From the NCBI RefSeq assembly GCF_026241755.1, contig NZ_JAPJDA010000002.1, positions 124,001-188,000 on the forward strand: a DNA stretch of 64,000 nt, given 5' to 3'. Source of the DNA: Salinimicrobium profundisediminis. GTDB taxonomy: Bacteria > Bacteroidota > Bacteroidia > Flavobacteriales > Flavobacteriaceae. This document shows positions 5,929 through 63,777 of the stretch, piece by piece; the stretch's first letter is position 1, and every line of letters starts with the position of its first letter. The translations under genes were made by a program, and so were the position numbers. The notes under the pieces are model-generated. The model had not been told where the DNA came from and ran no database searches. It worked only from the letters and a program-made list of their open reading frames with translations.

Positions 5929-5941
5929 AAAATGACATTTT
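5929..5941. repeat. AAAATGNCATTTT palindrome, copy 1 (N=A)
   Basis: Intergenic copy 9 bp after the M13 stop codon, directly before the terminator hairpin. Context TCAAAAATGACATTTTA. Confidence 0.7.
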
Positions 5942-5972
5942 AAGCCCCTCTTCCGGAGGGGCTTTCTTTTTT
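5942..5972 (+). terminator. Intrinsic terminator of the M13 peptidase gene
   Basis: A stem AAGCCCCTC (5942-5950) pairs with GAGGGGCTT (5956-5964) and is followed by a T-rich tract (CTTTTTTT). Confidence 0.85.
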
Positions 5973-5990
5973 TCCGCAGGAAAAAGAATA

Positions 5991-6032
5991 TTAATCCCTG
6001 CGGGATTAAAAATAATTCCGCCAGGAATTATT
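5991..6032. repeat. Two adjacent perfect hairpins upstream of the RAYT gene
   Basis: TTAATCCC (5991-5998) pairs with GGGATTAA (6002-6009) across a 3-nt loop. AATAATTCC (6011-6019) pairs with GGAATTATT (6024-6032) across a 4-nt loop. No T-tract follows, so these are not simple terminators. Related small hairpins recur inside the RAYT coding region. Confidence 0.7.
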
Positions 6033-6109: not shown

Positions 6110-6122
6110 AAAATGGCATTTT
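6110..6122. repeat. AAAATGNCATTTT palindrome, copy 2 (N=G)
   Basis: Intergenic copy between the REP-like palindrome and the RAYT gene; context CTCTCAAAAATGGCATTTTA. Confidence 0.7.
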
Positions 6123-8930: not shown

Positions 8931-8943
8931 AAAATGACATTTT
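8931..8943. repeat. AAAATGNCATTTT palindrome, copy 3 (N=A)
   Basis: Intergenic copy downstream of the MFS gene; context CTCTCAAAAATGACATTTTA, almost identical in flanks to copy 2. Confidence 0.7.
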
Positions 8944-9923: not shown

Positions 9924-10730
9924 TCAAATTCCGGCGCTGAATTCTACTCCCAGCTGCCGCATCACTTTTGAAGCTGAAATCACTTTCCCCACAGATGGCC
10001 GGGATTGATCGAATTGCGGAAGCTCCAACTCCATTTCCCGTGCTTTTTGCTGATAATATTTCTCCTTCGGCGGATTCAGGGGAAAAACAGCATTGTATAC
10101 CTCTCCAAAAATGTCATTTTCGAGTACCTTTTTTATCACCTGCAGGCAATCTTCCAGGTGAATGAGATTTACAGGCCCTAACGGATTTGCGAGTCCGCTC
10201 CTGCCGGCAAGGTACTTCACAGGGTGCCGTCCCGCACCATAGAGTCCGCCAAAGCGAATTACTGTAGTGTCAAAAATGGCATTTTCAAGAAGAATTTTTT
10301 CTGCGGAAATGATCTCTTTCCCAGAAGCTGAAGTGGCATTTGGTTGAGTATCTTCGGTATAAACAGGAAAGCTTTCTGTCTCTTCATAAACGGAAATTGA
10401 AGACACAAAAATGACCTTTTTGACACCTGAAGTTTCAATAGCTTCAGCCAGCTTTTTTATAGCTTCGGAATAATTTACTTCCGGGTTCTTGCGAAGTCCA
10501 GGGGGAAAATCAACGATCAAAATGCCATTTTTGGAAAGGAAATCTTCAATGTTTCCCTCAACACCTTCCGAAGTAACTTTTATTTGAAAAGCTTCAACAC
10601 CTGCCTGTTTTAAAACCGGAAGTTTTTCAGCAGAAGTTGTAGAGCCCTTTACCGAAAGGCCTTCAGCCATTAGCATTTTAGCCAGCGGGAATCCCAGCCA
10701 GCCGGTTCCGAGTATGGAGATGTTTTTCAA
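9924..10730 (-). CDS. NAD(P)-binding epimerase/SDR-like protein (YeeZ-like)
   Basis: A 268-aa extended short-chain dehydrogenase-like protein. The N-terminal Rossmann motif is ILGTGWLGFPLA (residues 6-17). The conserved SSISVYEE block holds Ser and Tyr at the usual active-site positions but no clear Lys at Y+4, so activity is uncertain. FGGLYGAGRHP is typical of nucleotide-sugar epimerase relatives. Notable for its DNA: three exact and one near copy of the 13-bp palindrome lie inside its 807 bp. Both flanks carry dispersed repeats. Confidence 0.8.
   Translation of the reverse strand: MKNISILGTGWLGFPLAKMLMAEGLSVKGSTTSAEKLPVLKQAGVEAFQIKVTSEGVEGNIEDFLSKNGILIVDFPPGLRKNPEVNYSEAIKKLAEAIETSGVKKVIFVSSISVYEETESFPVYTEDTQPNATSASGKEIISAEKILLENAIFDTTVIRFGGLYGAGRHPVKYLAGRSGLANPLGPVNLIHLEDCLQVIKKVLENDIFGEVYNAVFPLNPPKEKYYQQKAREMELELPQFDQSRPSVGKVISASKVMRQLGVEFSAGI
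10108..10120. repeat. AAAATGNCATTTT palindrome, copy 4 (N=T)
   Basis: Inside the epimerase gene, where it encodes part of LENDIFGE on the minus strand. Confidence 0.65.
10273..10285. repeat. AAAATGNCATTTT palindrome, copy 5 (N=G)
   Basis: Inside the epimerase gene (LENAIFDT), in the same reading phase as copy 4. Confidence 0.65.
10519..10531. repeat. AAAATGNCATTTT palindrome, copy 6 (N=C)
   Basis: Inside the epimerase gene (LSKNGILIV), in a different codon context from copies 4 and 5. A near copy (AAAATGACCTTTTT) lies at about 10407. Confidence 0.65.
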
Positions 10731-10870: not shown

Positions 10871-13182
10871 TACTTTAAAATAAACGTTTTCTTCACCACA
10901 ACAGCATCATTCAGCACAAAAGGCCGCGGAATCATAGCCTCATCGCGGGCAGGCACCTGCAACTGCGTATTCTCAAACAGGTCATAGGATGCCTCCAAGA
11001 GGGTGATTTTGGGCTGCAGTCCCTCTTCAACAGTCATTTCCAGGCGCAGGGTGTCTTTACTAACGGCGTAATAAGACAACAACTGGTCCCTCCACCTGCT
11101 TTTGTGAACGTGAAGCTCACTCTGGCCGGGTTGAAGGTAACCTGCTTCCAGTCCGTTGGCTTTAAAAGATTTAAAATTAACGGCTTTATCGGCAAAAAGG
11201 GCCATTCGATTGATCTCCCGGTTTGGAGCAATTTTTACGTGGTACACATCCTCTCCTTCAGCTTCGTTACTGGCTTTTTGAACAGAGATATAGGGTGCAG
11301 GCAGCATAATTTGTGGTGCCGGGGCAGTTTTACTAAAACTGCTGCCGTTCTTGCTCCCAAACCAATTCTCTTGTTGTGCAACTTCAGCATCTTCAAAATA
11401 AGCTGCAGTAAAGGTATCGAGCCCGGCATCATAAGTGTTCCAGGTGGCTATATTCCTATCCTTATCGGCCACGTAGACCAGGCTGTTGGGCCGTGGACGT
11501 GCCTCATTGAATTCCGATTTAAAATGTGCAACAAGGAAGAGCCCTATAAAAATCACAAAACACACGAACCCAAAAAGCTGATTACTCCTTAGCGCTCCAA
11601 AAACCGGCCACAACAGCACGAATAAAAGCACCACCAGAACAGCCGACAGAAAGAGCATTTTAAGCCCCAATGCAACCGGGAACGACAGGATGAACGGCAT
11701 GAGAATAAAGATGGCCGGCAGGCTCAAAAAGGCCAGGAGGATCAATTTCCATTTTAAATCGAGGATCAAAATGAATAGCTGTACAATTCCAAACATAAGC
11801 GGAAGCACGAAATATGCCGCCCCTTTTAAGTAGACTGCAGCCAGGGCAATTATAATCCACCACAAAATAAGCGGCGCTACCAGGAGTTCATGTGTATTTT
11901 GAGGCTTCCGGAACCTGTGATAAACGTAAAAACAAATGGCGAGGGCCAGGAAGATTATGGCTGCAAGGTACCAGTAACCATTGTAAGTAAAGCCGTGCTC
12001 CATTTCCTGGTACTGCGGGTAAAACCAAAGGGCGAATTCCCAAAAGAAATAACCTGCCAACCCAGCCAGGAAAAGCGATAGCAGCAATGGCAAAAAGCCT
12101 TTCAGCATTGGTTTCACCTTCAGCTTTTTCTTCAGCATCCCAAAGATAATTACGGCAAGTAGCAAAAGAAGCGAAATGAACAACAGGGGAAAGACCCAGC
12201 TGTATGGATACGTTACTAAATTGAGGCCTGGAATATCAAAAAATAGCACATCTTCTTCAGAATTTAGACTGCTGAGTGGTGCCGAAGCCGAATACTTCAG
12301 CAAGGGCATTAAATAACTGCCCTGGTGGGCCAGCGTACGTGCATCAAGATTTTCAGGAATATCTGTAGCCGTGTGATAGTCGAAGTGATCATCGATAAAA
12401 GCAAAATTGAGTCCGTTGATATTCCCTTGCTCGCGCAGCACAGTAAGATCGGTATCGTTGGGCAGCATTTTATAAACGCTGTAAGCCAGGGAATTTGTGA
12501 CGGGATAAGGGACTTCGGCTTCAGTAAAAAGATCAATTAAGGCTTTATTTCCACCATTGGTCTCAAGCAGCATAAAAGAATTCCCTCCACTACCACGAGA
12601 TTCAAAATTGAGGGCCAGCCCAACATTTGCAGCCCACGGGTGTTCTTTTACAAACAATTCGGCACCGTTGAGGCCCAGCTCTTCGGCATCGGTAAAAAGA
12701 AGGATAATGTCATTAGCGGGAACATTCCCCGAAGCACGATACGCCCTGATAGCTTCAAGTATGGTTGCCACGCCGCTGGCTGCATCACTGGCGCCCGGCG
12801 AAGAATGCATTGCACTATCATAGTGTGACATAAGAAGCAGCGCCGGCCCCTCACCCTTGCCTGCTATTCGTGCCAGGATATTTTGTGAACGTACTAAAGT
12901 ACCTGTTTTATTAAGGGTAAACCCTTCCTGCATTTCAATGAGAAGCCCCAGGTTTTCAAGTTGATCTACAATATAATTTCGGGCATGTGAATGCGCCGCA
13001 CTACCCACATAGTGAGGTTGCTGCGCCAATGCCTGAACGTGTTTAAAAGCCCGGGCCGTAGAGAATTCATTAGCTGGTACTTCTTTATCTAAATCTACAT
13101 AGGGGCGTGTTCCCTGCACACTCCAGGTGATACCTGCAATAAGAACCAGAAGCGCAATAAGTGCCTGAATATTTTTAGCCAT
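10870..13182 (-). CDS. M28 family membrane zinc peptidase
   Basis: A 770-aa protein with an N-terminal membrane anchor (residues 5-25) and an M28 aminopeptidase-type domain: LLMSHYDS (zinc His and Asp), GASDAASG (bridging Asp), DAEELGLNGA (catalytic Glu-Glu) and a later zinc-ligand region with HFDYHTATD. After residue 330 there are about eight hydrophobic helices and a C-terminal extracytoplasmic domain, the layout of the fungal vacuolar-membrane protease Pff1 and its Bacteroidota relatives. The peptidase domain probably faces the periplasm. Start: ATG at 13182 rather than the TTG two codons upstream; a TATATTTG box (13186-13193) lies just before it, suggesting a very short leader. Confidence 0.9.
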   Translation of the reverse strand: MAKNIQALIALLVLIAGITWSVQGTRPYVDLDKEVPANEFSTARAFKHVQALAQQPHYVGSAAHSHARNYIVDQLENLGLLIEMQEGFTLNKTGTLVRSQNILARIAGKGEGPALLLMSHYDSAMHSSPGASDAASGVATILEAIRAYRASGNVPANDIILLFTDAEELGLNGAELFVKEHPWAANVGLALNFESRGSGGNSFMLLETNGGNKALIDLFTEAEVPYPVTNSLAYSVYKMLPNDTDLTVLREQGNINGLNFAFIDDHFDYHTATDIPENLDARTLAHQGSYLMPLLKYSASAPLSSLNSEEDVLFFDIPGLNLVTYPYSWVFPLLFISLLLLLAVIIFGMLKKKLKVKPMLKGFLPLLLSLFLAGLAGYFFWEFALWFYPQYQEMEHGFTYNGYWYLAAIIFLALAICFYVYHRFRKPQNTHELLVAPLILWWIIIALAAVYLKGAAYFVLPLMFGIVQLFILILDLKWKLILLAFLSLPAIFILMPFILSFPVALGLKMLFLSAVLVVLLFVLLWPVFGALRSNQLFGFVCFVIFIGLFLVAHFKSEFNEARPRPNSLVYVADKDRNIATWNTYDAGLDTFTAAYFEDAEVAQQENWFGSKNGSSFSKTAPAPQIMLPAPYISVQKASNEAEGEDVYHVKIAPNREINRMALFADKAVNFKSFKANGLEAGYLQPGQSELHVHKSRWRDQLLSYYAVSKDTLRLEMTVEEGLQPKITLLEASYDLFENTQLQVPARDEAMIPRPFVLNDAVVVKKTFILK

Positions 13183-13310
13183 ATTCAAATATATTTAAAA
13201 GCAGTTCAACAACTAAGCTGGCTGTCCAAAAATCTTAAAGTATTGCCAACTCCCTTTATATTATTGTAGGAAATTCATATTTTAAGAGCTAACAATCAAA
13301 TACTTGTGCT

Positions 13311-13778
13311 ATGGGAATAAAGAGTTTTCAAGGAAGAAGGGCCGAGCCCGAAAAAGCTGCAAGTACTCCAATGTGCGTGAAAGATTATATGACGACAGAC
13401 CTGGTGACCTTCAGAAAACATCAAACTGTTATTGAAGTGATGGAGCAACTAATGCATCATAAAATATCGGGTGCCTGTGTGGTGGACGAGGATTATAATT
13501 TGCAGGGAGTGATCTCTGAAGGGGATTGTATAAAACATATCTCAGACAGCAGGTATTATAATCTGCCGATGGATGACAACCTTGTGGAAAAACGAATGAC
13601 CTGCGACGCTATTACTATAGATGCTGAAATGAATGTGCTTGAAGCAGCAAAAAAATTCATTGAACATAGGTTTCGTCGCTTTCCTATAGTAAGCAACGGC
13701 AAACTTGTAGGGCAATTAAGCCAGAGTGATGTTCTTAGGGCAGCACTTGCCCTGAAAGGACAAAGCTGGGGCTCTTAG
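13311..13778 (+). CDS. Tandem CBS-domain protein
   Basis: A 155-aa protein consisting almost only of two CBS motifs (about residues 22-80 and 90-150), with VKDYMTTDLVTF and VEKRMTCDAITI as the starts of each. CBS pairs bind adenosine nucleotides and act as regulatory modules; a stand-alone pair implies an unknown partner. Its stop codon overlaps that of the convergent zinc-ribbon gene by 4 nt. Confidence 0.9.
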   Translation: MGIKSFQGRRAEPEKAASTPMCVKDYMTTDLVTFRKHQTVIEVMEQLMHHKISGACVVDEDYNLQGVISEGDCIKHISDSRYYNLPMDDNLVEKRMTCDAITIDAEMNVLEAAKKFIEHRFRRFPIVSNGKLVGQLSQSDVLRAALALKGQSWGS

Positions 13779-14122
13779 ATCCTCTTTACAAGTGCATAAA
13801 AATCCCCTTCAAGCGGCAGATATCCCTGGTCATAAACGAAGTAGTAGGTATTCCCGGTCTTTGTAGTATATATGCTGGTGAAATAATCGAAATTAAAGCC
13901 TTTGGTAAGCAGTTTTGATTTGGAAAGTTTAATTTTCCCATCGGGATTTAGCTCTTCGAGAATACGGTAGTTTTTGCGCAACTGGTTATTAACGTTGCGC
14001 ACCAGATTCTTGCTGTCTTTGTTGAGATTGTTGTTATATGCATTGCGACAGTAATCGCTGCAGAACTTTTTATCTGTTCTCCCCACAATTTTTTCTCCAC
14101 ATTCAAGACAGCCTTTTTCCAT
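13775..14122 (-). CDS. Small zinc-ribbon protein, conserved hypothetical
   Basis: A 115-aa protein. The N-terminus CLECGEKIVGRTDKKFCSDYC (C5, C8, then FC-x3-C) is a treble-clef-like ribbon also found in DUF2116-type proteins. The remainder is basic, then ends in an aromatic strand region (TGNTYYFVYDQGYLPL). The fold suggests nucleic-acid or protein binding. Its role is unknown and no operon partner is present. Confidence 0.75.
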   Translation of the reverse strand: MEKGCLECGEKIVGRTDKKFCSDYCRNAYNNNLNKDSKNLVRNVNNQLRKNYRILEELNPDGKIKLSKSKLLTKGFNFDYFTSIYTTKTGNTYYFVYDQGYLPLEGDFYALVKRI

Positions 14123-14156
14123 ACTTTTAAAAATAGTAATTTTTGATTAATTCAGT

Positions 14157-14640
14157 TCCTGTTCATTGTTTATTAAATAATTGCTAATTGAAAAAGAAGG
14201 CCACGAATTCACGAATCTTTTTTTCCACTCAGACCGATTACTCAGGCTTAATCACGCAAAGGACGCAAAGGAATTCGCAGAGGCCGCCAAGATTCCTGTT
14301 CATTGTTTATTGATAATTGTTAATTGAAATGAAGGCCACGAATTCATGAATCTTTCTTTCCACCCAGACCTGTTTACTCAGGTTTTATCACGCAAAGTCC
14401 GCGGAGGTTGCGCAAAGACCGCAAACAATTCCTGTTCCTTGTTAATTGCTTATTGTTAATTGAAAAGAAGGCCACAGATGCACTGATATTTTCTCTCTAC
14501 TCAGACCTGCTTACTCAAACCTTTAATTGTTTATTGATAATTGCTCATTGAAAAAAGGCCACAGATGCACAGATAATTTTTATCTACTCAGACCTTCTCA
14601 CTCAGCCTTTTAATTTCTGCCCATTATTAATTGGTTATAG
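14157..14640. repeat. Four direct repeats of about 135/87 bp
   Basis: The 519-bp gap 14123-14641 is filled by four diverged copies of one unit. Their common anchor GAAGGCCAC(A/G) lies at about 14199, 14334, 14470 and 14557 (spacings 135, 136 and 87). Each has a TTGTTTATTGATAATTG-like block, GGCCAC(A)GATGCAC or GGCCACGAATTC, and CTCAGACC-TACTCAG. Copies 1 and 2 also carry ATCACGCAAAG-GACGCAAAG. No gene is present. Confidence 0.75.
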
Positions 14641-14641
14641 T

Positions 14642-15193
14642 TTATTGGTTATTGATAAGTGAAAAAACAGCCACACTAATAAACCTGCCGTTCTTTATTT
14701 CTGAATCTCTTAAAACACCTTCCTGCTGAAAATGGCATTTTTGGAGGGTATTTTGGCTACTGATGTTCTCGGTTTCCACAAAGGCTTCAATCCTGTGGAG
14801 ATGTAACTTTTGAAAAGCATATTCCAGCACCACTTCCAGCGCCTCCTGCACAAATCCCTTTCCCCAATACTTCGGAAGCAGCCAAAATCCCAGTTCTGCT
14901 TTTTTGTGTTCCCTGCTCAGGTTGTTATACCCAATTGCCCCGCAGAAGCTATTGTCTTCAGCAGAAATTATCGCCCACCATATGCCCGTTCGGGTCCTTT
15001 CCAGTTCTGCATACCACTCCAGCTGTTCCCAGGTCGCTTCAAGACTGTTGTAATTTACACCGTAATACTTTATAACATCTGGATTGGAGAGTCCACTATA
15101 GACATTCTCCAGATCTGCTTCTGTGATCTGACGTAGCTTTAAGCGGGTTTTTGTAAGTTTGGGAAAGTCATGTTTACAATTAACAGTGATCAA
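14642..15193 (-). CDS. GNAT acetyltransferase (RimJ/RimL-like)
   Basis: A 183-aa protein of the N-acetyltransferase superfamily. TRLKLRQITEADL is the usual start of the RimJ/L type. Acetyl-CoA motif A is KYWGKGFVQEAL (Q/RxxGxG/A equivalent), and motif B is HRIEAFVETENISSQ. Substrate unknown. Both gene ends lie in repeat DNA: the start appears to be a TTG inside a CAATTATCAATAAACAATT sequence, and the last codons (INNQ) and stop lie in TTATTGGTTATTGATAA. The first residues are therefore uncertain. Confidence 0.85.
   Translation of the reverse strand: MITVNCKHDFPKLTKTRLKLRQITEADLENVYSGLSNPDVIKYYGVNYNSLEATWEQLEWYAELERTRTGIWWAIISAEDNSFCGAIGYNNLSREHKKAELGFWLLPKYWGKGFVQEALEVVLEYAFQKLHLHRIEAFVETENISSQNTLQKCHFQQEGVLRDSEIKNGRFISVAVFSLINNQ
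14729..14741. repeat. AAAATGNCATTTT palindrome, copy 7 (N=G)
   Basis: Inside the GNAT gene (NTLQKCHFQQ); the 3' flank reads TTGGAGG. Confidence 0.65.
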
Positions 15194-15260
15194 TTATCAA
15201 TAAACAATTAAAAAAGTTTCGGGTTGCCAATAAAGTTACCAGTTTGGAACATTGAACTAT

Positions 15261-15333
15261 ACTGGAATTTGGTTTTTGGTGCTTGGTGCTTGGTGCTTGG
15301 TGCTTGGTGCTTGGTGCTTGGTGCTTGGTGCTT
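15261..15333. repeat. GGAATTTGG plus 8 tandem TTGGTGC heptamers
   Basis: ACTGGAATTTGGTTT is followed by eight exact TTGGTGC units (15276-15331). It is an expanded version of the TTGGAATTTGGTGCTT element at 10841. It is followed at 15341-15384 by an imperfect CTCAATACT tandem that runs into the stop codon of the next gene. Confidence 0.85.
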
Positions 15334-15382
15334 AAAATTTCTCAATACTCAATTCTCAATACTCAATACTAACTACTAAATA

Positions 15383-15856
15383 CTATTTAAGCTTCTCCAG
15401 CTCCAGGTTCAGGTCGTACTGCAGGTCTTCGTGCAGCTTCTCCATATTCTTTTTCGCCAGGTCCAGCTGCCGTTCATAAAGGCTTTTCAGGATCTTATTA
15501 CGGCGGATGGAAGGTTTGAAGTCATTCATCTTCTGAAGAAAATAGATCAGCAATTCTACTTCGGTTTCCTTTTTCCCCGAATATCGACTGTATTTTTTGA
15601 CATTTTTGAGGATCTTACGAATACCCTTCTTTGTGTAATAAGTATTGCTGCGGTTGATTAAGGCAAATTCTGCATCCATCTCCATTTTCACCTTCTGCCT
15701 GTATTCCTCTTCATCCTGTGCATCAAACAGGAGATAGGTAAGCAGTTCTTTATTTTCCTTTTTAAAACGCGACAGGCGAAGCACAATTTGCAAAAGCTCC
15801 TCCCGGTCCTGGTGTTTTAATTCGTCTCTTATTTCTTTTGCCGAAGCTGGTTTCAT
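15383..15856 (-). CDS. Conserved hypothetical, charged helical protein
   Basis: A 157-aa cytoplasmic protein, mostly helical and strongly charged (REELLQIVLRLSRFKKENKELL, then basic KKGIRKILKNVKKYSR). It resembles small Bacteroidota proteins of the DUF6155 kind, but I cannot assign a family firmly. Its ATG overlaps the stop of the ABC ATPase gene (ATGA at 15853-15856), so the two are translationally coupled and probably work together. Confidence 0.7.
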   Translation of the reverse strand: MKPASAKEIRDELKHQDREELLQIVLRLSRFKKENKELLTYLLFDAQDEEEYRQKVKMEMDAEFALINRSNTYYTKKGIRKILKNVKKYSRYSGKKETEVELLIYFLQKMNDFKPSIRRNKILKSLYERQLDLAKKNMEKLHEDLQYDLNLELEKLK

Positions 15857-16524
15857 TGATTTCTAACTTTTAAATATTCGTGCGTTGCCAGGTCTTCCTC
15901 GTTCTCCACCTTGTGCAATTCCCCTTTTTTCAGAATAAAATTATCAACTGCTATCTCCAGCACATCGCGGTAATAATGATCTGTAACCACAATCCCCTTA
16001 GTTGCTTTAAGCGAAAACAGCAACTCTTTGATCTTTTCGATATACTGCGGCTCCACCATAGAAAAAGGCTCGTCTAGCAGCAGGAAAGGATGCGGCATGT
16101 GAGCCAGCAACAGCAATTCCAGGTACTTTAATTGTCCGGCAGAGAGCTTGCCGACTTTTTTGTTTTCAAAAGCAGCGACTCCCGGCGAGTAAAATATCCT
16201 GTCCTGCGCTTCGCCTTCAGGAAAAATAAGGGGAATCACATCGCGCACCTTCAGCTCTTTGGGGAGAAAACTGTCCTGAGGCAAATAGCCTGTCATTTTC
16301 TTCGGAATTACTTCGGAAGTTTTCACCTTCACACCATCAAGCGTTAAACTTACAGCATCTACACTTATAATTCCCATTACCGCCTTAAGCAAAGTAGATT
16401 TACCTGAACCATTCCTGCCAAAAAGGCCAATAATCTCACCCGTTTTACAGCTGAAGGCAACATCACACAGAAGCTGATTTTTTCCGAAGCTATGACTCAG
16501 CTTACTTACTTCGAGCGTTCTCAT
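15853..16524 (-). CDS. ABC transporter ATP-binding protein
   Basis: A 223-aa stand-alone ATPase. Walker A is GRNGSGKST, the Q-loop region is YLPQDSF, the signature is LSAGQLKYLELLLL (variant LSAGQ for LSGGQ), Walker B is FLLLDEPF and the switch His is in VVTDHYY. The ATG at 16524 is chosen over an upstream extension lacking family similarity. No classical permease is nearby; the only membrane candidates are the 93-aa three-helix protein at 17152 and the single-TM protein at 16647, in the same orientation. Substrate unknown. Confidence 0.9.
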   Translation of the reverse strand: MRTLEVSKLSHSFGKNQLLCDVAFSCKTGEIIGLFGRNGSGKSTLLKAVMGIISVDAVSLTLDGVKVKTSEVIPKKMTGYLPQDSFLPKELKVRDVIPLIFPEGEAQDRIFYSPGVAAFENKKVGKLSAGQLKYLELLLLAHMPHPFLLLDEPFSMVEPQYIEKIKELLFSLKATKGIVVTDHYYRDVLEIAVDNFILKKGELHKVENEEDLATHEYLKVRNQ

Positions 16525-16548
16525 ATAAAAACAGTGCGAGCTGGCGAG

Positions 16549-16573
16549 CTTGATTGTCCGCAGGACAATCAAG
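16549..16573. repeat. Perfect 11-bp hairpin upstream of the ABC ATPase gene
   Basis: CTTGATTGTCC (16549-16559) pairs with GGACAATCAAG (16563-16573) across a GCA loop, flanked by GGCGAG and GCAAGCGAGC. With no T-tract on either side it is unlikely to be a terminator. It may be another REP-like element or a leader structure. Confidence 0.6.
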
Positions 16574-16646
16574 CGTTGCAAGCGAGCATAAAGTTTCGAT
16601 TTGAGACAGATTTCAGCATTGTTTTTATGTGTTGTTGTAGCACGTT

Positions 16647-17114
16647 TTATTCGTATTTATACTTCTTTCTCCAATTATTTTCACTCTCCAGGAAATCAAT
16701 TAAAATTGTTGTCATTTCCTCCACTGATGTTGGTGGTACAGATTTGAGTAAATGGTCATTCTCAGTCACGTATCCCGAAGCTAATCCATCTTCTTCTAAA
16801 CTTCCACTTACGTGTAAAGCGTTACCATTTTTATCTTCAAGTTGCACAATATGAAATACATTCCAGTTGATTGATTCCATTAAATCTTGTATAATTTCGG
16901 GAGTAGTATTTTCGGATATTGTTTCAAGCGTTTCCCCATAGTCATAGGTAACCACCAGCTTTAAAGTCCGCTGCTGTTGTGAATCAATCTTTTGAAGTGT
17001 AGAAATTTTATTTTTAGGAATGTTCCAGTTGTCAGCTGTCCGTGTTGAATTGAATTTGAAGAAGATTGCTGCTCCGAACAGGAGAAATGTTCCAATCAGT
17101 AGGTATGTGTTCAT
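16647..17114 (-). CDS. Hypothetical protein with one N-terminal membrane helix
   Basis: A 155-aa protein with a membrane anchor at residues 4-20 (YLLIGTFLLFGAAIFF) and a soluble domain with alternating strands (RTLKLVVTYDYGETL; WNVFHIVQLEDKNGNALHVSGS). I do not recognise the family. It lies 37 bp downstream of the 93-aa membrane gene and 122 bp upstream of the ABC ATPase, all on the minus strand, so it may be an accessory of that system. Confidence 0.55.
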   Translation of the reverse strand: MNTYLLIGTFLLFGAAIFFKFNSTRTADNWNIPKNKISTLQKIDSQQQRTLKLVVTYDYGETLETISENTTPEIIQDLMESINWNVFHIVQLEDKNGNALHVSGSLEEDGLASGYVTENDHLLKSVPPTSVEEMTTILIDFLESENNWRKKYKYE

Positions 17115-17151
17115 TTTTTTGAGTGAGTTTGGTTAATGTGCTACAACTGTT

Positions 17152-17433
17152 TCATAGAAAAAGGAAGAGTATAATTAGAAGCGGAGTCACAAAAATGAGA
17201 TTGCAGATCCACACCTTCTTCAGAAGGAATCTTTTTGTAAATCCGAGGTTGTAATACAGGTAATATTCATTTTTTCTGAAGGTTTCGTAACCAAGATAGC
17301 CAATAAACATTCCGAAGCTAAGAAAGATTAGCGTACCGCTTACCGCTCCAAAATAAATTCCCGAGATCACAGAGAAAATGAGGTTGAAAAAATTGAAATC
17401 CCGGTAGTATTTCCAGAAGGCTCTTTGATTCAT
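17152..17433 (-). CDS. Small three-helix membrane protein
   Basis: A 93-aa protein with hydrophobic segments at about 15-31, 33-50 and 73-93, and a conserved-looking loop FRKNEYYLYYNLGFTKRFLLKK. Such short proteins with an EYY-x3-NLG loop occur beside lone ABC ATPases in Bacteroidota, so this is the best candidate for a membrane partner of the ATPase at 15853. The family is otherwise unknown. Confidence 0.6.
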   Translation of the reverse strand: MNQRAFWKYYRDFNFFNLIFSVISGIYFGAVSGTLIFLSFGMFIGYLGYETFRKNEYYLYYNLGFTKRFLLKKVWICNLIFVTPLLIILFLFL

Positions 17434-17441
17434 TCTTGGTT

Positions 17442-17576
17442 GGTCTCAAATGGTTGGTAACACAGCAGTTTTGTAATAATACAAAAATTTATGCTGCAAA
17501 AATTATTCGTTTACAAACACTTACAAACGGATGTAAACGAAAACAAATCAGTATCAACCGAATAACATTTGAGACC
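17442..17576. promoter_or_regulatory. Inverted repeats in the divergent ssb / membrane-protein promoter region
   Basis: GGTCTCAAATG (17442-17452) and CATTTGAGACC (17566-17576) are perfect 11-bp inverted copies near the two ends of the 205-bp spacer. Inside lie TTTTGTA-ATAA-TACAAAA (17469-17486) and CGTTTACA/TGTAAACG (17508-17515, 17532-17539) with TTACAAAC twice. They could be operators of a shared regulator; no binding protein can be named. Confidence 0.35.
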
Positions 17577-17638
17577 GGTAGTAGGTTTGTCTCGTTGAAA
17601 TGAACAAATGAATTTCAGCTAAAACAAATTTTGACATC

Positions 17639-17971
17639 ATGAACACACTAAGAAACAAAGTACAGCTTATTGGACACGTAGGGAACGCACCAGAGATCGT
17701 AAACATGGAATCGGGTAAGAAGCTTGCCAAATTCTCTATCGCCACCAATGAAACCTATAAGAACAACAAAGGCGAAAAAGTAACCGATACGCAATGGCAC
17801 AACGTAGTTGCCTGGGGCAAAACTGCCGATCTTATTGAAAACTACGTGCCTAAAGGTAAAGAAATAGGTGTGGAAGGCAAACTTACCAGCCGCAGCTATG
17901 AGGATAAAGACGGCATAAAAAGATATGTAACAGAAGTAGTTTGCAATGAGGTACTGCTTCTCGGAAAATAA
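17639..17971 (+). CDS. ssb: Single-stranded DNA-binding protein, short form, copy 1
   Basis: A 110-aa OB-fold SSB: MNTLRNKVQLIGHVGNAPEI, then KLAKFSIATNETY, TQWHNVVAWGKTADLIENYV and GKLTSRSYED. The protein ends right after the OB fold (CNEVLLLGK), so it lacks the disordered tail and acidic C-terminal tip that recruits repair proteins in housekeeping SSB. It is probably an accessory SSB. The second copy begins 29 bp downstream, so the two are probably cotranscribed. Confidence 0.92.
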   Translation: MNTLRNKVQLIGHVGNAPEIVNMESGKKLAKFSIATNETYKNNKGEKVTDTQWHNVVAWGKTADLIENYVPKGKEIGVEGKLTSRSYEDKDGIKRYVTEVVCNEVLLLGK

Positions 17972-17999
17972 GGATCTATTAACGATAATTCATACAATT

Positions 18000-18332
18000 A
18001 TGAACACGCTAAAAAACAACGTACAGCTGTCGGGCAACGTGGGCAAGACGCCCGAGATCATCACATTAAGTACCGGTCGAAAACTGGCAAAATTCTCCCT
18101 TGCCACACGAGAGACCTACACCAATCATAAAGGAGAAAAAGTGACCGATACCCAATGGCATAATATCGTCGCGTGGGGCAAAATGGCCGAGATGGTGGAG
18201 CAGCAGGTTCCTAAAGGCAGGGAAATTGAGCTCGAAGGAAAACTGAACAGCCGAAGCTATGAAGACAAGAACGGCATCAAAAAATATGTAACCGAAGTTG
18301 TATGCAGAGAATTGATCCTGCCGGAAAAATAG
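18000..18332 (+). CDS. ssb: Single-stranded DNA-binding protein, short form, copy 2
   Basis: A 110-aa paralogue of the preceding gene, roughly 70 percent identical by eye, with the same layout and also without the acidic tail (ends CRELILPEK). The ATG at 18000 matches the N-terminus of copy 1 (MNTLKNNVQLSGNVGKTPEI). It looks like a recent tandem duplication. The two products could form mixed tetramers, which is inference. Confidence 0.92.
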   Translation: MNTLKNNVQLSGNVGKTPEIITLSTGRKLAKFSLATRETYTNHKGEKVTDTQWHNIVAWGKMAEMVEQQVPKGREIELEGKLNSRSYEDKNGIKKYVTEVVCRELILPEK

Positions 18333-18338
18333 GTGTCA

Positions 18339-18351
18339 AAAATGCCATTTT
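18339..18351. repeat. AAAATGNCATTTT palindrome, copy 8 (N=C)
   Basis: Six bp after the ssb stop codon, in the long form GGTGTCAAAAATGCCATTTT-TGAG, directly before a separate terminator hairpin. Confidence 0.7.
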
Positions 18352-18355
18352 TGAG

Positions 18356-18392
18356 TAACAAGTGCAGGAACTCCCTGCGCTTGTTATTTTTT
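18356..18392 (+). terminator. Intrinsic terminator of the ssb pair
   Basis: TAACAAGTGCAGG (18356-18368) pairs with CCTGCGCTTGTTA (18374-18386, one G-T), followed by TTTTTT. It runs into the stop codon of the convergent hydrolase gene. Confidence 0.8.
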
Positions 18393-19293
18393 AAAAATAG
18401 ATTTCCTGTGCCTGCCGGAAAGTGTTGGCGTGTGCCTCCACAATATTTTTAATATGGGGAGAATAGCCGCCGCCCATACTCACTTCAACCGGAATTCTCA
18501 GGTCATGGCAGGTTTGCAGTACAAATCGGTCTCTTTTCTTACAACCGGCCTGGGTGCAGCCCAGCTTTCCAAGTTTATCTGTAGCCAGGATGTCCACTCC
18601 GCTTAAATAGAAGATGAAATCAGGGGTTTGTTCTTCGATAAGTCGGGGCAGGGTTTCTTTCAGGATCTTTAGATATTCTTCATCGCCGGTATTGTTCTCC
18701 AGCTCTATATCGAGATCAGATTTTTCCTTTTTAAAGGGATAATTGTTTTTCCCGTGCATAGAAAAAGTAAAGACCGAAGGATCATTCTGGAAGATTTCTG
18801 CCGTTCCATTTCCCTGGTGTACATCTAAATCGACGATAAGGATCTTCTTTGCTAGATTTTCCTTTTGCAGCCATTTCGCCGCCACCGCCTGATCGTTAAA
18901 CATACAAAAGCCTTCCCCCTGATTTGAATAAGCATGATGGGTGCCACCGGCAATGTTCATTGCAATGCCATGTTGCAGAGCATATTCTGCCGCCTTAATA
19001 GTGCCCGAGGTAATTAGAAATTCCCGTTCCACCAGTTTTTTAGACAGAGGTAAGCCAATGCTCCTGGCTTCGCGGTAGCTCAGCGTCTGATTCTTTAGCG
19101 CCTCTACATAATTCTTATCGTGAACAGCAAGAATATCAGATTCGTTGGGGAATACAGGTTCAAAAAAGTTTTCCTGGGTGCAGGTGCCCTCGTGAAGTAA
19201 TTGCTGTGGCACCAGTTCATATTTTTCCATCGGGAAACGATGGCCTTTGGGCAAAGGCAGAAAGTAAATGGGATGGAAAGCGATTTTGAGCAT
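18391..19293 (-). CDS. Histone-deacetylase-family amidohydrolase
   Basis: A 300-aa member of the arginase/deacetylase superfamily (class I/II HDAC-like, AcuC/acetylpolyamine hydrolase relatives). Active-site elements are the His pair in GGTHHAYSNQGEGFCMFND, the zinc ligands D and H in VDLDVHQGNGTAE, and a later ligand Asp in LSGVDILATDKLG. Substrate unknown: acetylated lysines, polyamines or small amides are possible. The ATG at 19293 is preferred; an in-frame extension upstream would be encoded by the adjacent repeat. Confidence 0.92.
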   Translation of the reverse strand: MLKIAFHPIYFLPLPKGHRFPMEKYELVPQQLLHEGTCTQENFFEPVFPNESDILAVHDKNYVEALKNQTLSYREARSIGLPLSKKLVEREFLITSGTIKAAEYALQHGIAMNIAGGTHHAYSNQGEGFCMFNDQAVAAKWLQKENLAKKILIVDLDVHQGNGTAEIFQNDPSVFTFSMHGKNNYPFKKEKSDLDIELENNTGDEEYLKILKETLPRLIEEQTPDFIFYLSGVDILATDKLGKLGCTQAGCKKRDRFVLQTCHDLRIPVEVSMGGGYSPHIKNIVEAHANTFRQAQEIYF

Positions 19294-19300
19294 TTTTTTG

Positions 19301-19435
19301 TCAGGTCGAGCGGAATGCAAACCTCCTATCGTTTTTTTTAATTCTTTTTCTCAAGAAACCCCTCGACTCCGCTCGGGGAGACTAAATGGTGTAAAGGAGA
19401 CAATTCATTTGTCAGGTCGAGCGAAGTCGAGACCT
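19301..19435. repeat. Composite hairpin repeat, left copy (TCAGGTCGAGCG / CCCCTCGAC family)
   Basis: Three hairpin modules: AGGTCGAGCGGAATGCAAAC-CT (19303-19324), CCCCTCGACTCCGCTCGGGG (19359-19378) and AGGTCGAGCGAAGTCGAGAC-CT (19414-19435). A GAGACAATTCATTTGTC linker precedes the last. The last two modules recur in the same order and orientation at 19834-19914, on the other side of the GIY-YIG gene. Confidence 0.8.
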
Positions 19436-19480
19436 CAATCCTTTCTAAATATTATTCAGGATAAGCTCACTGGCAATCTC

Positions 19481-19801
19481 CTAATTATTAATATTCCTAT
19501 TTTTAGAATGACTTTCATTCCGGCACTCAGCCAAAAGCTTCAGAAGTATCTCATCTTCATTAGCCAAAGCTCTTTTCTTCTGAGCGCTCCATTTTTTGAT
19601 CTTCTTTTCAAACCATATTGCCTGAATTACATTAGTAAACTCCTGGTGAAATATTACTTCTACTGGCCTCCTTTTATAGGTGAAGCTGTTTTTATTTAAT
19701 CCAGCATTATGTTCTTCCAGTCTTCTGGAAATATCATTTGTTATACCCGTATAAAGGAGTTTATCGGAACATTCAAGGATATAGACATAATACAGTTTCA
19801 T
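19481..19801 (-). CDS. GIY-YIG nuclease domain protein (YhbQ/UPF0213-like)
   Basis: A 106-aa stand-alone GIY-YIG domain. The motif pair is YYVYILECSD (GIY strand) and LLYTGITNDISRRLEEHNAG (YIG strand with catalytic Arg). FTYKRRPVEVIFHQEF and the Glu in AIWFEKKIKKWSAQKK complete the nuclease core. Housekeeping role unknown; family members have been linked to DNA repair. Here the gene is bracketed by direct copies of a composite hairpin repeat, suggesting mobility or a nuclease-repeat relation. Confidence 0.9.
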   Translation of the reverse strand: MKLYYVYILECSDKLLYTGITNDISRRLEEHNAGLNKNSFTYKRRPVEVIFHQEFTNVIQAIWFEKKIKKWSAQKKRALANEDEILLKLLAECRNESHSKNRNINN

Positions 19802-19833
19802 CTTTTCAAATTGAAGATCGTTCTAGAAAGAAA

Positions 19834-19914
19834 CCCCTCGACAGAGCCTGTGCCGAGCGCAGCCGAGGTGCTCGGGGAGACAATGCATTGTCAGGTCGAG
19901 CGGAGTCGAGACCT
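19834..19914. repeat. Composite hairpin repeat, right copy
   Basis: The first hairpin runs from CCCCTCGAC to GCTCGGGG (19834-19877, with an extended loop arm). It is followed by GAGACAATGCATTGTC, which contains the 12-bp palindrome ACAATGCATTGT, and by AGGTCGAGCGGAGTCGAGAC-CT (19893-19914). The last two bases form part of the metG stop codon on the minus strand. Confidence 0.8.
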
Positions 19915-22027: not shown

Positions 22028-22139
22028 TCTCAAAATTAAAGGCTGTAAAGTTAAGCAAGTGCAGGGGATTACACGTTAAATTTTAGTAAAAGGCAATGCC
22101 GATGCGACAAATCTTCTGCATTTTAGTAAAAAAGTAGAA

Positions 22140-22727: not shown

Positions 22728-22746
22728 ATTGAAGTAACCTATACCT

Positions 22747-22786
22747 AAACAGGGTGCCAAAAATGACATTTTTGACACCCTGTTTT
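22747..22786. terminator. Bidirectional terminator containing palindrome copy 9 (N=A)
   Basis: A long near-perfect stem: AAACAGGGTGCCAAAAATG pairs with CATTTTTGACACCCTGTTT (one mismatch, central A), followed by TTAC. AAAATGACATTTT at 22760-22772 is its tip, showing that the dispersed 13-bp palindrome can form the end of a terminator-like hairpin. Confidence 0.75.
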
Positions 22787-22805
22787 ACAAAGGATTTAAA
22801 AACTG

Positions 22806-23698: not shown

Positions 23699-23714
23699 AA
23701 TTTATTCCAGATTA

Positions 23715-24974: not shown

Positions 24975-25165
24975 GTATTGTCTTTGTTTAAAAGCATAAA
25001 GAATGTTTTTTGAGTATCTGCCTACTATACAAGATAATAGAAAGCAGCTAACTGCACCATTGCATTAAGGGAACTTTAAGTGTTCGCCAGCAAATACAGC
25101 AGCAAAGACCACCTGGTATTCCAACATTTTAAAAAATTCTTAAGAAAATAGCAGCGGCAACTGCT

Positions 25166-25173: not shown

Positions 25174-25199
25174 AAATAACAGCTAAAAACAGGGCACCA

Positions 25200-45751: not shown

Positions 45752-45770
45752 TCAAAAATGCCATTTTTGA
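45752..45770. repeat. Palindrome copy 11 (N=C) between hmgA and hpd
   Basis: TCAAAAATGCCATTTTTGA, a 19-bp perfect palindrome (odd centre) in the 92-bp spacer. Its extended arms AACC / GGTT could form a weak hairpin, but no T-run follows on the minus strand. Confidence 0.7.
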
Positions 45771-60800: not shown

Positions 60801-61243
60801 TCCATATCTACCCAGTACCCCATTTTTTCAGTAAGGTCGTTCCACACATCGGTATAACGCATCACGGCATTTTTACACGCCTCGTTATATTCCTCTACAC
60901 TTATCTTCTTCCCAATATCTTCTTTGGTGATGCCCAGCTCCTTCTCAACACCAAGTTCTATAGGCAGGCCGTGGGTATCCCAACCGGCTTTTCGCTTTAC
61001 CTGGTAACCTTTTTGGGTTTTGAACCTGCAAAAAATATCTTTAATGGCACGCGCCATGACATGGTGAATTCCGGGTAGACCGTTTGCTGAAGGTGGCCCT
61101 TCAAAAAAGATAAACGGCTCTTCTCCATCTCTTGAAGTTATACTCTTCTCAAAAATGTCATTTTCCTTCCAGAATTGCAGAATTTCTTCGGCCACTTTTG
61201 GCAGGTCAAGTCCTTTATATTCAGGGAACTTTGCGCTCATCAT
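57836..61243 (-). CDS. ileS: Isoleucyl-tRNA synthetase, type 2
   Basis: A 1135-aa class I synthetase. The nucleotide-binding motif is PSANGLPGIHHVMARAIKD: G58-I-H60-H61 in place of HxGH. The KMSKS motif is GQKMSKRLGN and the editing domain lies near residues 190-400 (AWTTTPWTLPSNTALTVGP; HTAPTFGADD). Long eukaryote-like IleRS2 enzymes tolerate mupirocin, and the swapped GxHH form is known for very strong resistance. The first of two adjacent ATGs is taken as the start. The dksA-like gene follows after 5 bp. Confidence 0.97.
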   Translation of the reverse strand: MMSAKFPEYKGLDLPKVAEEILQFWKENDIFEKSITSRDGEEPFIFFEGPPSANGLPGIHHVMARAIKDIFCRFKTQKGYQVKRKAGWDTHGLPIELGVEKELGITKEDIGKKISVEEYNEACKNAVMRYTDVWNDLTEKMGYWVDMDDPYITYKSKYMETVWWLLSQIYKKGLIYKGYTIQPYSPKAGTGLSSHELNQPGTYQDVTDTTVTAMFKAKKETLPDFLSEIEGEVFFIAWTTTPWTLPSNTALTVGPRIEYVTVKTYNQYTFEPITVIVAKDLAEKQFDKKFQKVDSEEALQAYKEGDKKIPFLTGKSFTGKEISESRYEQLMPYAQPYEHPENAFRIILGDFVTTEDGTGIVHTAPTFGADDAMVAKQANPEVPPMLVKDENDNLVPLVDLQGKFRPELKEFGGKYVKNEYYNDGEAPEKSVDVEIAIKLKEENRAFKVEKYLHSYPNCWRTDKPILYYPLDSWFIKITEVKDRMHELNKEINWKPKSTGEGRFGNWLANANDWNLSRSRYWGIPLPIWRTEDGKEEKIIGSIEELKQEMSRAVEAGFMEADLFESFQPGDFSDDNYDKVDLHKNVVDGIVLVSGSGKPMKREADLIDVWFDSGSMPYSQWHYPFENAEKVEKTWRKADFIAEGVDQTRGWFYTLHAIATMTFDDVAYKNVVSNGLVLDKNGQKMSKRLGNAVDPFETLAAFGPDATRWYMISNANPWDNLKFDIEGISEVRRKFFGTLYNTYSFFSLYANIDNFTYSEADVPLEERPEIDRWILSELHTLVENVDKFYADYEPTRATRAISEFVQENLSNWYVRLCRRRFWKGEYGTDKISAYQTLYTCLETVAKLGAPVAPFFMDRLYKDLEKATQKESFESVHLANFPEVDHSYVNKELERQMQKAQTISSLVLSLRKKEMIKVRQPLQRVMIPILDEQQRKEIAAVAELIKSEVNVKELELIDDASGILVKQIKPNFKVLGPRFGKDMKQVAAKINSFSAEDIKKIERDGKIEVDINGNSLTLESGDVEITSQDIEGWLVANSGNITVALDITISDELKKEGIARELVNRIQNMRKDSGFEVTDKIDVTLQKDGTVEDAVQQNIQYIKTETLTANLDLAEEVNNGLEVSFDEVTTRLLIKKH
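61152..61164. repeat. AAAATGNCATTTT palindrome, copy 12 (N=T)
   Basis: Inside ileS near its 5' end (FWKENDIFEK); flank CTCTCAAAAATG resembles the intergenic copies 2 and 3. Confidence 0.6.
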
Positions 61244-61368
61244 CTTGTTCTTTCAAAATAGTTGCGCGAAAATAATGATTTTTAGTAAATCGAGTGGTTT
61301 AAAATAGGAAAACCTGAAGACGAGCTGATTTTTGTCAGTTCTAAATTATTTAAAATCTGAAGCTTATA

Positions 61369-63777
61369 CTAGAAGGAGTACTGCAGGGCGAGGATCAGGT
61401 TCCTGCCGGCAGCCGCCACTCCCGATGAGTACGTGCGGTAGCGTTGATCGGTAATGTTTTCAAGGCTGGCAGTGACCAGCCACATTTTCCCTGCCTGGTA
61501 TTGAGAACTAAAGTTAAGTGTATACCATTCAGGAGAATAAGGATCCCCGTTTTCATCTATGGCATACAGGTAGTCTTTGTCCCTTTCTGAAGGCGCCAGC
61601 TCATCGGCACTAATCTCTCCATTGTACTCGCTAAAAAGGTCAAACCTAAGCCTGTCTTTCTCCCAAACCAGGTGTGCATTTCCAAAAAGAGGTGCTGCAT
61701 GCCGCAAAGGTGCTGTTGTACCATCATCCTGCTCTTCCTCTCCTTCAGTAATACTTAATTGCGCCTTTAACTTCAGTTGTTCGCTAAACCTGATTTTTGC
61801 CCCGGCCTCGAATCCATACACATGCGCACGAGCCGCATTCTGAATAGCCTGCACCCTACTGGGCTCGCCGTGGTATTCAATTGTAGTTTCACCATTGAGG
61901 TCAAAATCCCGCCGCACCAAAGCATCCTCCAAAAGTGTGTAGTAGCCGGCAAGATCGAACTTTACCACATTATCAAAGTTCAACGCAAGCCCCAGCTCTG
62001 CGTTATAGGCTTTTTCGGGCTCAAGATCGGGATTGGGCACTACCACAAGGCCCGGAGCCGAATCGAAGATCTTCCCTACATCATCTATATTAGGCGATCT
62101 AAAGCCGGTAGAAAGGTTGAATTGCCATCCAAAAATGTCATTTTGCTGCCAGTTTAATCCGGCACTTCCCGTTAAAGCGCCAGTTCGTAAATTGGCATCT
62201 GAAAATGGAAAATCGTAAATATCCTCATCAAAAACAGCGTCTAAAAGAATGTAATTATATCTGGCCCCGGTTTGCAACGTAAGGGAAGGATCAATTTCCC
62301 ACTGCAAATTACCATAGGCAGCCAAAGATTGCCAGGTGGCATCATCGGGATACCTCGAAGTGCCGGCAGACCACTCTCCGGTGATGATGTTCTTTTCACT
62401 CCCTTTAGACCCTACTTTGTTGTACACATATTCTGCTCCGTAAGAAAGTGTGGTAAGGTGGAAGTTCTTTTCAAAATCAAGGTTAAGAGAATAAGCATCG
62501 ACTTCTTCCTGCGTATGATAAAAGATGTCATCTCCAAAAGCACGGTCATTACGGCTCTCTTCAAAATTTTGGTATGCTGCAGTCAATTTTGCTTCATTAT
62601 AAATTTTTCCATTCCCGACTTTATTAAGCTGAAAATTAGTTTGCAGCCATTCCTGTGGGCCATAATACCATTCGGCAGCTCTTAAAACTCCATTCTTTTT
62701 ACGGTAAAGCCGGTCGTAACGCGGATAATCGGTAGTAGTTGAATAGATCATTCCGAGGGAAAAATTGTATTCTTCATTGGGTTTGAATCTTATTTTCTGA
62801 AGTAGATTGAGCTGCTCATATCCCGTAGGTTTTTGCACCTGCGGATTGTCATTTTCTACCATCACATCCTGCCCGTTTCGCCTCACCACATAGTTGGGAC
62901 GCAAATATTCTTCGGGCCCGTGGCTTCCCATGCGCATATTTCCAAAATCTGAATAAGAAGCACTGCTTAAGAATGCCCATTCCTTTAGACCGTAAGACAA
63001 ATTGAGATGCCCGGTTTTCTCATTATTGGCAGTAGCATACCGGCTGTAAGCGCGGCCGGAAAGATTTCCTCCTTTTGCCACCGAAAAAGCAGGAGAAAGG
63101 GTGAGAAAATTGATCACGCCACCAATAGCGTCGCTCCCAAAAACTAAAGATCCGGGGCCGGGAACAACTTCGGTCCTTTCAACCGAAAGAGGATCTATAG
63201 AGATCACGTTCTGCACATTACCACCCCTAAAAATGGCAGTATTCATACGAACCCCATCTACAGTGATCAACAACCTATTGGTTGCAAATCCCCTAATCAT
63301 GGGGCTCCCACCACCTAACTGACTCTTTTGAACATATACCTGCCCGGTACTCTCCAGTAGATCGGCTGAAGTTTGAGGTGCCGCGGTAAGTATATCTTTC
63401 CGGTTAATGGTGATGACCTTTTGGGGGACCATGTTTCGGTTCTGCTCAAATTTTGAGACCGAAAGCACTACTTCTGAAAGTTCATTTTTAGTAGATGCCA
63501 AATATACTTTTCCTTTCTTCTGAAGGATTTGCCGTTTGGTCGCATGAAAATCTGAATGCGAAACATGCCTGAAGAAGATGACTTCATTAGAAGAAAAACC
63601 TGAAATATTGGCCTCCCCGTTAAAACCAGTAAGAAGGTTTTTCGACTTATCCTTATTAAAAACTGCAACATTGAAAACAGGCTCTCCTGTTTCTTTATCA
63701 AGCACCGTAATTTCCTGAGCTGAACAAACAGAAAAAAGCAGGAAAAACAGGGCTAAACCAGAGTAAAGTCTCATCAT
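61369..63777 (-). CDS. TonB-dependent receptor, heme/siderophore type
   Basis: A 802-aa outer-membrane transporter with signal peptide (LALFFLLFSVCSAQ), a short carboxypeptidase-regulatory-like domain (ITVLDKETGEPVFNVAVFN), a TonB-box region, a plug of the hemoglobin/transferrin/lactoferrin-receptor kind (SADLLESTGQVYVQKSQLGGGSPMIRGFATNRLL; GPGSLVFGSDAIGGVINFLT) and a barrel with conserved FRSPNIDDVGKIFDS and the last strand AAAGRNLILALQYSF. It probably imports heme or an iron chelate. It is translationally coupled to recO upstream by an ATGA overlap. Confidence 0.93.
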   Translation of the reverse strand: MMRLYSGLALFFLLFSVCSAQEITVLDKETGEPVFNVAVFNKDKSKNLLTGFNGEANISGFSSNEVIFFRHVSHSDFHATKRQILQKKGKVYLASTKNELSEVVLSVSKFEQNRNMVPQKVITINRKDILTAAPQTSADLLESTGQVYVQKSQLGGGSPMIRGFATNRLLITVDGVRMNTAIFRGGNVQNVISIDPLSVERTEVVPGPGSLVFGSDAIGGVINFLTLSPAFSVAKGGNLSGRAYSRYATANNEKTGHLNLSYGLKEWAFLSSASYSDFGNMRMGSHGPEEYLRPNYVVRRNGQDVMVENDNPQVQKPTGYEQLNLLQKIRFKPNEEYNFSLGMIYSTTTDYPRYDRLYRKKNGVLRAAEWYYGPQEWLQTNFQLNKVGNGKIYNEAKLTAAYQNFEESRNDRAFGDDIFYHTQEEVDAYSLNLDFEKNFHLTTLSYGAEYVYNKVGSKGSEKNIITGEWSAGTSRYPDDATWQSLAAYGNLQWEIDPSLTLQTGARYNYILLDAVFDEDIYDFPFSDANLRTGALTGSAGLNWQQNDIFGWQFNLSTGFRSPNIDDVGKIFDSAPGLVVVPNPDLEPEKAYNAELGLALNFDNVVKFDLAGYYTLLEDALVRRDFDLNGETTIEYHGEPSRVQAIQNAARAHVYGFEAGAKIRFSEQLKLKAQLSITEGEEEQDDGTTAPLRHAAPLFGNAHLVWEKDRLRFDLFSEYNGEISADELAPSERDKDYLYAIDENGDPYSPEWYTLNFSSQYQAGKMWLVTASLENITDQRYRTYSSGVAAAGRNLILALQYSF
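62132..62144. repeat. AAAATGNCATTTT palindrome, copy 13 (N=T)
   Basis: Inside the TonB receptor gene (WQQNDIFGWQF). Confidence 0.6.

Follow-up and report, generated by a model that had tools for sequence, protein, structure and literature searches.

Within a 64,000-nucleotide stretch of the Salinimicrobium profundisediminis genome (the window), we analysed a 13-bp palindrome, AAAATGNCATTTT, which consists of two 6-bp arms around a free centre base and occurs here in thirteen exact copies. By analogy, we tentatively read this motif as a genome-wide recognition tag of a core Salinimicrobium clade, which might be kept by a drive like that of the DNA uptake sequences (DUS) and uptake signal sequences (USS), although we hold this at somewhat less than even confidence. 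All thirteen copies lie at the starts listed by the original prediction, a reading of the bare sequence, and its tally of centre bases (A in three, G in three, C in three and T in four) agrees with ours. In 100 dinucleotide shuffles the average is 0.07 copies (maximum 2), showing its hand estimate of about 0.01 copies per 64 kb to be somewhat low and the excess itself to be real. With up to one mismatch the window holds 22 sites compared to 0.92 expected, and the genome-wide count it had proposed as a check returns 460 copies in the 4.04-Mb genome (G000) against 3 of the reversed pattern.

Strong enrichment is seen only in this genus, and within it in a core clade. Nine of the twelve Salinimicrobium genomes have 118-460 copies, compared to 0-20 in 393 other genomes of the family and 0-4 in 23 other genomes of the order, and it is from these genus, family and order counts that we assign the enrichment to the core clade, a limit as known for DUS and USS. 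From G000 to G011 the counts are 460, 0, 34, 19, 201, 207, 121, 225, 164, 424, 191 and 118, the assembly with none (G001) being only 74% complete. Since 14 of the 34 copies in G002 sit in two cassette-array contigs, what remains there is close to the upper end of the family background. The two richest genomes reach 114-121 copies per Mb, a density which DUS and USS exceed in their families. The graded counts inside one genus (0-34, 118-225, 424-460) could allow the origin and growth of the motif to be dated. A ranking of iterated palindromes having 6-bp arms is headed by the 13-mer with its extensions in G000 (runs of N aside), in G009 and in S. sediminis, and 200 kb each of G002 and G003 contain no comparable iterated palindrome with such arms. 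The related A/T palindrome AAAAAGNCTTTTT, serving as control, is not strongly enriched (30 copies versus 27 reversed in G000, 31 versus 18 in G009, 1-31 over the twelve genus genomes). With respect to a phage origin, 78 stretches of a viral collection match an extended 17-bp pattern, the 13-mer alone not having been searched there; each holds one or two 13-mers, and the motif is not concentrated in any viral contig found.

The second feature carrying our interpretation is the sharpness of the motif. In 1.108 Mb of G000 and G009 we counted 184 exact versus 153 one-mismatch copies, though 36 single mismatches are possible. In 528 kb of G000, 91, 82 and 161 sites with 0, 1 and 2 mismatches compare to 0.6, 7.8 and 99.8 expected, resulting in an over-representation of about 150-fold, 10-fold and 1.6-fold with a first drop of 14-fold. 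An excess of exact over singly mismatched copies and an anomalously strong consensus, unlike that of regulator sites, are described as a mark of USS and DUS in the portion consulted of a study that also tested an origin of USS by substitution (PMC1626085). DUS and USS were furthermore modelled as a biased-uptake drive, for which the sections consulted give an 82- to 92-fold fall at the first mismatch, steeper than the 14-fold observed here (PMC1939737). The mutational process that had been suggested as a source of the motif is a conceivable alternative. That the exact sequence is preferred accords more with a biased drive than with ordinary selection on binding sites.

The signal is at the level of the DNA and not of the protein. 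The 429 predicted genes of G000 (457 kb of the 528 kb, called with a home-made dicodon caller and not a standard annotator) contain 34 copies, compared to 1.6 (maximum 4 in 40 trials) upon resampling of synonymous codons with the protein kept. Codon or peptide preference is thereby ruled out, bearing out the earlier claim that codon preference is insufficient, and the coding copies use all three reading phases (20, 11 and 3). Alignment to the sister genome G009 over a 248-kb region (86.5% identity) covers 35 of the 45 copies, the ten copies without alignment being omitted from the conservation counts. All 12 arm bases are kept in 29 of the 35, compared to 28.6% of 11,041 composition-matched windows, and this fraction is the real test, the lack of arm changes among the 29 being given by construction. 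In these 29 copies the centre base differs ten times, and positions outside the core differ in 5-24%. In coding copies, 43 codons out of 43 retain their silent third base, compared to 32.1 expected from the same codons elsewhere, and intergenic flanks can be scrambled between the sister species with the core intact. Few sites report on gain and loss of copies: six of the 35 are absent in G009, and of the thirteen window copies four can be aligned in S. sediminis and six each in G004 and G007. The copy at 10108 is present in all three of the latter genomes, and their other aligned sites are mostly substituted, in some cases with one to three gapped positions as well, and do not show a clean gap. 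Judged from these alignments, presence and absence between the compared pairs appear to differ mainly by substitution, suggesting point mutation rather than insertion.

Placement was determined, with genes from the same home-made caller, in sampled stretches that are denser than the whole genomes (91 copies in 528 kb versus 60 expected for G000, whose contigs were picked from those listed with matches; 93 in 580 kb versus 70 for G009, whose tiles partly follow the window). Genes hold 0.073 copies per kb in G000 and 0.081 in G009, compared to 1.61 and 1.31 in convergent gaps, 0.86 and 0.74 in tandem gaps and 0.08 (one copy in 13.2 kb) and 0.33 (five in 15.0 kb) in divergent gaps, the lowest gap class; these counts omit copies straddling a gene end (8 of 91 and 4 of 93, respectively) and three copies unplaced in a gap. 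The copies favour gene 3' ends, and 37-45% nonetheless lie within genes. Concentration at promoters, the pattern of a transcription-factor regulon, was not observed, the divergent gaps being the poorest (promoters in tandem gaps were not separated). Of the proposed binding site for a chromosome-organising or regulatory protein, a transcription-regulatory site is accordingly disfavoured, whereas three features support a site read by a protein: it is palindromic, its arms are conserved around a free centre, and its outer boxes keep a fixed spacing. We found neither clustering nor regular spacing, the distances between copies being indistinguishable from random.

The motif is moreover part of integron attC-like sites. 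The G002 contigs C15 and C8 (33-34% G+C; loci L108 and L109) are cassette arrays; each carries, close to one of its ends, a gene for an IS110-family transposase that is identical in DNA in both, and their repeats read AAC...GCGG...CCGC...GTTG, which we take to be the form of attC sites. In these arrays and in loci L265-L270 the attC-like sites are mostly 122-129 bp long. With one motif-bearing attC-like site as query we obtained matches in ten of the twelve genus genomes, nine of which extend beyond the motif block (G008 matching in the motif block only). The exact motif occupies the central part of 30 of 38 distinct attC-like sites from genus loci; to the right of it these 30 sites also have a nearly fixed block, TGA.TACCTTTAAAA, most other central columns being variable. 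This proportion should not be taken as an unbiased rate, because the sites were collected with a loose in-house pattern, nested variants being removed, from loci fetched for their likeness to a motif-bearing query. Like chromosomal-integron attC sites, those of the genus are arrayed, with conserved AAC...GCGG and CCGC...GTTG arms and the motif in the central variable part; unlike them, the dispersed motif copies examined have no attC arms. Outside the genus, a similar attC-like site was found in 6 of 197 genomes, four candidates being scored per genome, which makes the numbers of sites lower bounds. A closely related attC of G064 (one copy in the genome) has a broken core with the flank kept, the four related attC-like sites of G144 (another genus) and those of G133 are without the motif, and at the G158 and G195 loci the in-house pattern detected no site and no exact motif is present. 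The classical integron integrase model TIGR02249 has no match over cut-off in the twelve genus genomes. Near the attC-like sites of several genomes a tyrosine recombinase of 397-417 amino acids is encoded (G006:C8:498030-498821, G009:C1:1985215-1986015, G000:C24:64899-65696 and equivalents), which the integron-integrase model matches in two pieces, below cut-off and with the middle region unmatched.

An uptake-like drive accounts slightly best for these data: the motif is sharp, its copies differ by substitution and lie at harmless positions, its growth is limited to a clade, and mobile cassettes carry it. According to such a model, one sequence-specific reader would demand nearly the whole 12-bp sequence on both strands alike, and since the site is symmetric this reader would probably be a dimer. 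DNA bearing the tag would be favoured on transfer between cells, either by preferential uptake or by recombination, resulting in an accumulation of copies, as the molecular drive that has been proposed behind DUS and USS would produce; the copies would need no local function and might settle where they are least harmful. A cassette whose attC contains the tag would be labelled for transfer in advance. The more specific version, a palindromic self-DNA recognition sequence in Bacteroidota which is bound by a dimeric non-pilin receptor, spread by biased exchange through the core clade and built into the attC centre so that cassettes travel labelled for uptake or recombination, we regard as rather unlikely in its entirety. 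Detailed knowledge of uptake-type tags comes from two proteobacterial families, and this exact, conserved and iterated sequence belongs to a phylum other than theirs. The motif resembles the DUS of Neisseriaceae and the USS of Pasteurellaceae in occurring as hundreds of exact copies confined to one genus or family, in differing by substitution, in exact copies outnumbering single-mismatch copies in the two richest genomes, in being enriched in non-coding DNA yet common in genes and in its A/T-rich flanks. It differs from them in being palindromic, in belonging to Bacteroidota and in residing also in integron attC-like sites. Because uptake is here suggested by analogy only and the usual pilus machinery was not found, we do not class the motif as a DUS or USS and would place it, by its similar genome dynamics, among iterated, drive-like genomic tags.

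The uptake machinery offers this reading weak support. The comEC gene, presumably encoding the uptake channel, scores over cut-off and has no internal stops in all nine enriched genomes, and in G000 it carries two copies of the motif itself. In G003, with 19 copies, comEC, which lies beyond lpxB, is decayed into pieces in several frames with large parts missing (L262, G003:C11:30001-37000, 2633-3564), and in the incomplete G001 no comEC scores over cut-off. Riemerella columbina, a flavobacterium, prefers its own DNA, the consulted part of that report establishing no tag (PMC7965970).

Several observations weigh against a tag of this type. Nearly universal in the family (77 of 80 genomes) and intact in the unenriched G002, comEC has no predictive value for the motif. 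Its decay in G003 amounts to one data point, and the motif may never have been present in that genome. The type IV pilus/type II secretion system (T2SS) ATPase family PF00437 is over cut-off in one of the twelve genus genomes and below it in the other eleven (pilins were not searched), because of which the machinery usual for DUS and USS is not evident. No reader protein was identified, and to our knowledge no uptake sequence is palindromic. S. sediminis, with fewer copies, has 14 exact versus 38 one-mismatch copies, and an attC of G187 outside the genus (5 copies in the genome) keeps the motif intact. In the open-access literature we found no publication linking Salinimicrobium with natural transformation, and likewise nothing on AAAATGNCATTTT, on iterated palindromes in flavobacteria or Bacteroidota, on Salinimicrobium integrons or on attC cassettes with an uptake sequence; for Salinimicrobium together with palindromes, a Gramella genome paper turned up. 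The lone T2SS/pilus-type ATPase over cut-off is encoded at G000:C21:22380-23510, in G000 only, and possibly belongs to a mobile element or a contaminating contig.

The strongest competitor, in our view nearly as probable as the tag, is a binding site of a genus-specific dimeric protein structuring the nucleoid or chromosome, comparable to Noc, SlmA or MatP. Each subunit would read one CATTTTTG half, an outer box would provide a second contact in either orientation, and weak selection in a very large population would keep the sites. The anatomy of the site speaks for this explanation, which accounts for the symmetry better than an uptake drive does and agrees with the free centre. The unit usually lies inside CAAAAATGNCATTTTTG, the stretch 10-14 bases away from the core being rich in A, and the whole element of about 41 bp comprises the core, often ACCT or AGGT at a fixed distance, and then A/T tracts. 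In 190 sites, counting both sides, a box starting exactly 8 bases before the core reads ACCT 37 times and AGGT 43 times compared to about 1.7 expected, CC and GG being enriched at this place and GC not. The GGTG and CACC outer arms noticed at first are hence real, but each orientation is found on each side. The A-rich flanks differ less between the sister species than nearer positions, and the copies are scattered over the chromosome and rarest, among gaps, in divergent ones. The boxes themselves are, however, not conserved between the sister species, as exemplified by the orthologues of the copy at 18339, with AGGT in the window genome and ACCA in G009. Sites of Noc, SlmA and MatP are palindromes of 12-23 bp and are similarly scattered in genes and gaps; the present motif is several times as numerous and, unlike them, limited to one genus, and the sampled tiles show no regional bias. 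For about 420-460 sites, no domain pattern emerges in 29 tiles of 20 kb from G009 (variance/mean of the copy counts 1.17; origin and terminus not located), and no candidate protein was found. The exactness is above that usual for intracellular binding sites, as far as the part consulted of that work covers them (PMC1626085), and both this sharpness and the uniform scatter are accounted for less well than by an uptake drive. Should the motif be a nucleoid site after all, it would represent a new chromosome-organising system.

An origin as a highly iterated palindrome of the HIP1 type, made and kept by a repair or conversion bias linked to a methyltransferase, appears improbable to us. Our motif shares with HIP1 and the alternate highly iterated palindromes (HIPs) of cyanobacteria being palindromic, highly iterated, lineage-specific and present in coding as well as non-coding DNA. 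A specificity of 12 bp is long for a methyltransferase, and the motif has no known methyltransferase link (methyltransferases were not searched for). It further departs from the HIPs in being A/T-rich and 13 bp long around an odd centre, in strongly preferring 3' ends and in its pattern of deviations. Cyanobacterial HIPs co-occur with cognate methyltransferases, as stated in the consulted part of PMC4390886. Outside the full site, the shorter core AATGNCATT shows hardly any enrichment in our genomes (122 in 464 kb, 81 of which are the 13-mer, and 21 in 400 kb of G002 and G003). The most tolerated change, T4/A8 in 61 of the 153 one-mismatch copies, lies inside the arm, and deviations do not peak at the ends.

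Even less credit can be given to an RNA hairpin at gene ends, such as an intrinsic terminator, a function to which the preference for 3' ends and convergent gaps and the location of some copies in long hairpins (22760, judged by eye) would point: more than a third of the copies are within genes, the core yields only an A/U-rich stem, and the outer boxes do not act as a hairpin stem, because both sides combine freely (CC-CC 10, GG-GG 13, GG-CC 16 and CC-GG 5). Of these 44 sites, each bearing a CC or GG box on either side, 21 could pair and 23 could not, as judged by comparing the box letters with no fold computed. A small mobile palindrome that inserts, resembling repetitive extragenic palindromic (REP) elements or miniature inverted-repeat transposable elements (MITE), had been considered in the original prediction and would explain dispersed copies with a strong consensus, but can practically be dismissed, since aligned orthologous sites without a copy in S. 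sediminis, G004, G007 and G009 are mostly substituted with no clean 13-bp gap and no consensus exists farther than about 15 bases from the core.

Turning to the individual copies in the window, the six named as intergenic are so placed. The copy at 5929-5941 (AAAATGACATTTT) lies 9 bp 3' of the stop of an M13 peptidase gene and keeps its arms in G009, the one at 6110-6122 is not kept there, and the one at 8931-8943, 66 bp 3' of a major facilitator superfamily (MFS) gene, has no alignment in G009. The copies at 18339-18351, 6 bp after a stop, and at 22760-22772 have no counterpart in G004 and G007; in G009 the latter shows kept arms, a changed centre and strongly diverged flanks. The copy at 45755-45767 has another centre base in G009. 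Coding copies are present at 14729-14741 (kept in G009, a near-match in S. sediminis, G004 and G007), at 30648-30660 in a 2,799-bp gene, at 61152-61164 in a class I tRNA synthetase of 1,135 amino acids and at 62132-62144 in a TonB-dependent receptor. The 807-bp gene said to hold three copies does so; it is located at 9924-10730 on the minus strand, encodes a member of the NAD(P)-binding/epimerase family and contains in addition a one-mismatch site. Its copy at 10108-10120 has the same arms in G009, S. sediminis, G004 and G007 having it as well, and the centre T of the window is G in G009, changing the amino acid (frame read by hand). The copy at 10273-10285 is kept in G009 and substituted in S. 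sediminis, G004 and G007, and the one at 10519-10531 has no equivalent in any of these four genomes. Near copies named at 10407, 32704 and 33274 were recovered with at most one mismatch at 10408-10420 (AAAATGACCTTTT, identical in S. sediminis), 32705-32717 and 33272-33284, whereas those named at 6931, 24360 and 51155 are absent from the list with up to one mismatch. Scanning the window for Rfam families and tRNAs gave no match, and window positions 11000-30000 have no match in a plasmid collection. Across the twelve genus genomes, the 9924-10730 locus (gene and flanks) has 0-4 copies.

Two further repeated sequences were observed. The 10-mer TTCTTCGGAA is frequent too, whether or not a genome is enriched in the motif; counted over both strands of 400 kb, it occurs for example 61 times in G009 and 47 times in G002 and G003 together, and perhaps belongs to UUCG-loop terminators. 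At about 83.8-85.0 kb of G000:C3, an intergenic array of units of about 123 bp, as given by the spacing of the copies, contains five exact copies of the motif and adjoins a GTPase gene, which we assume to be EngB-like.

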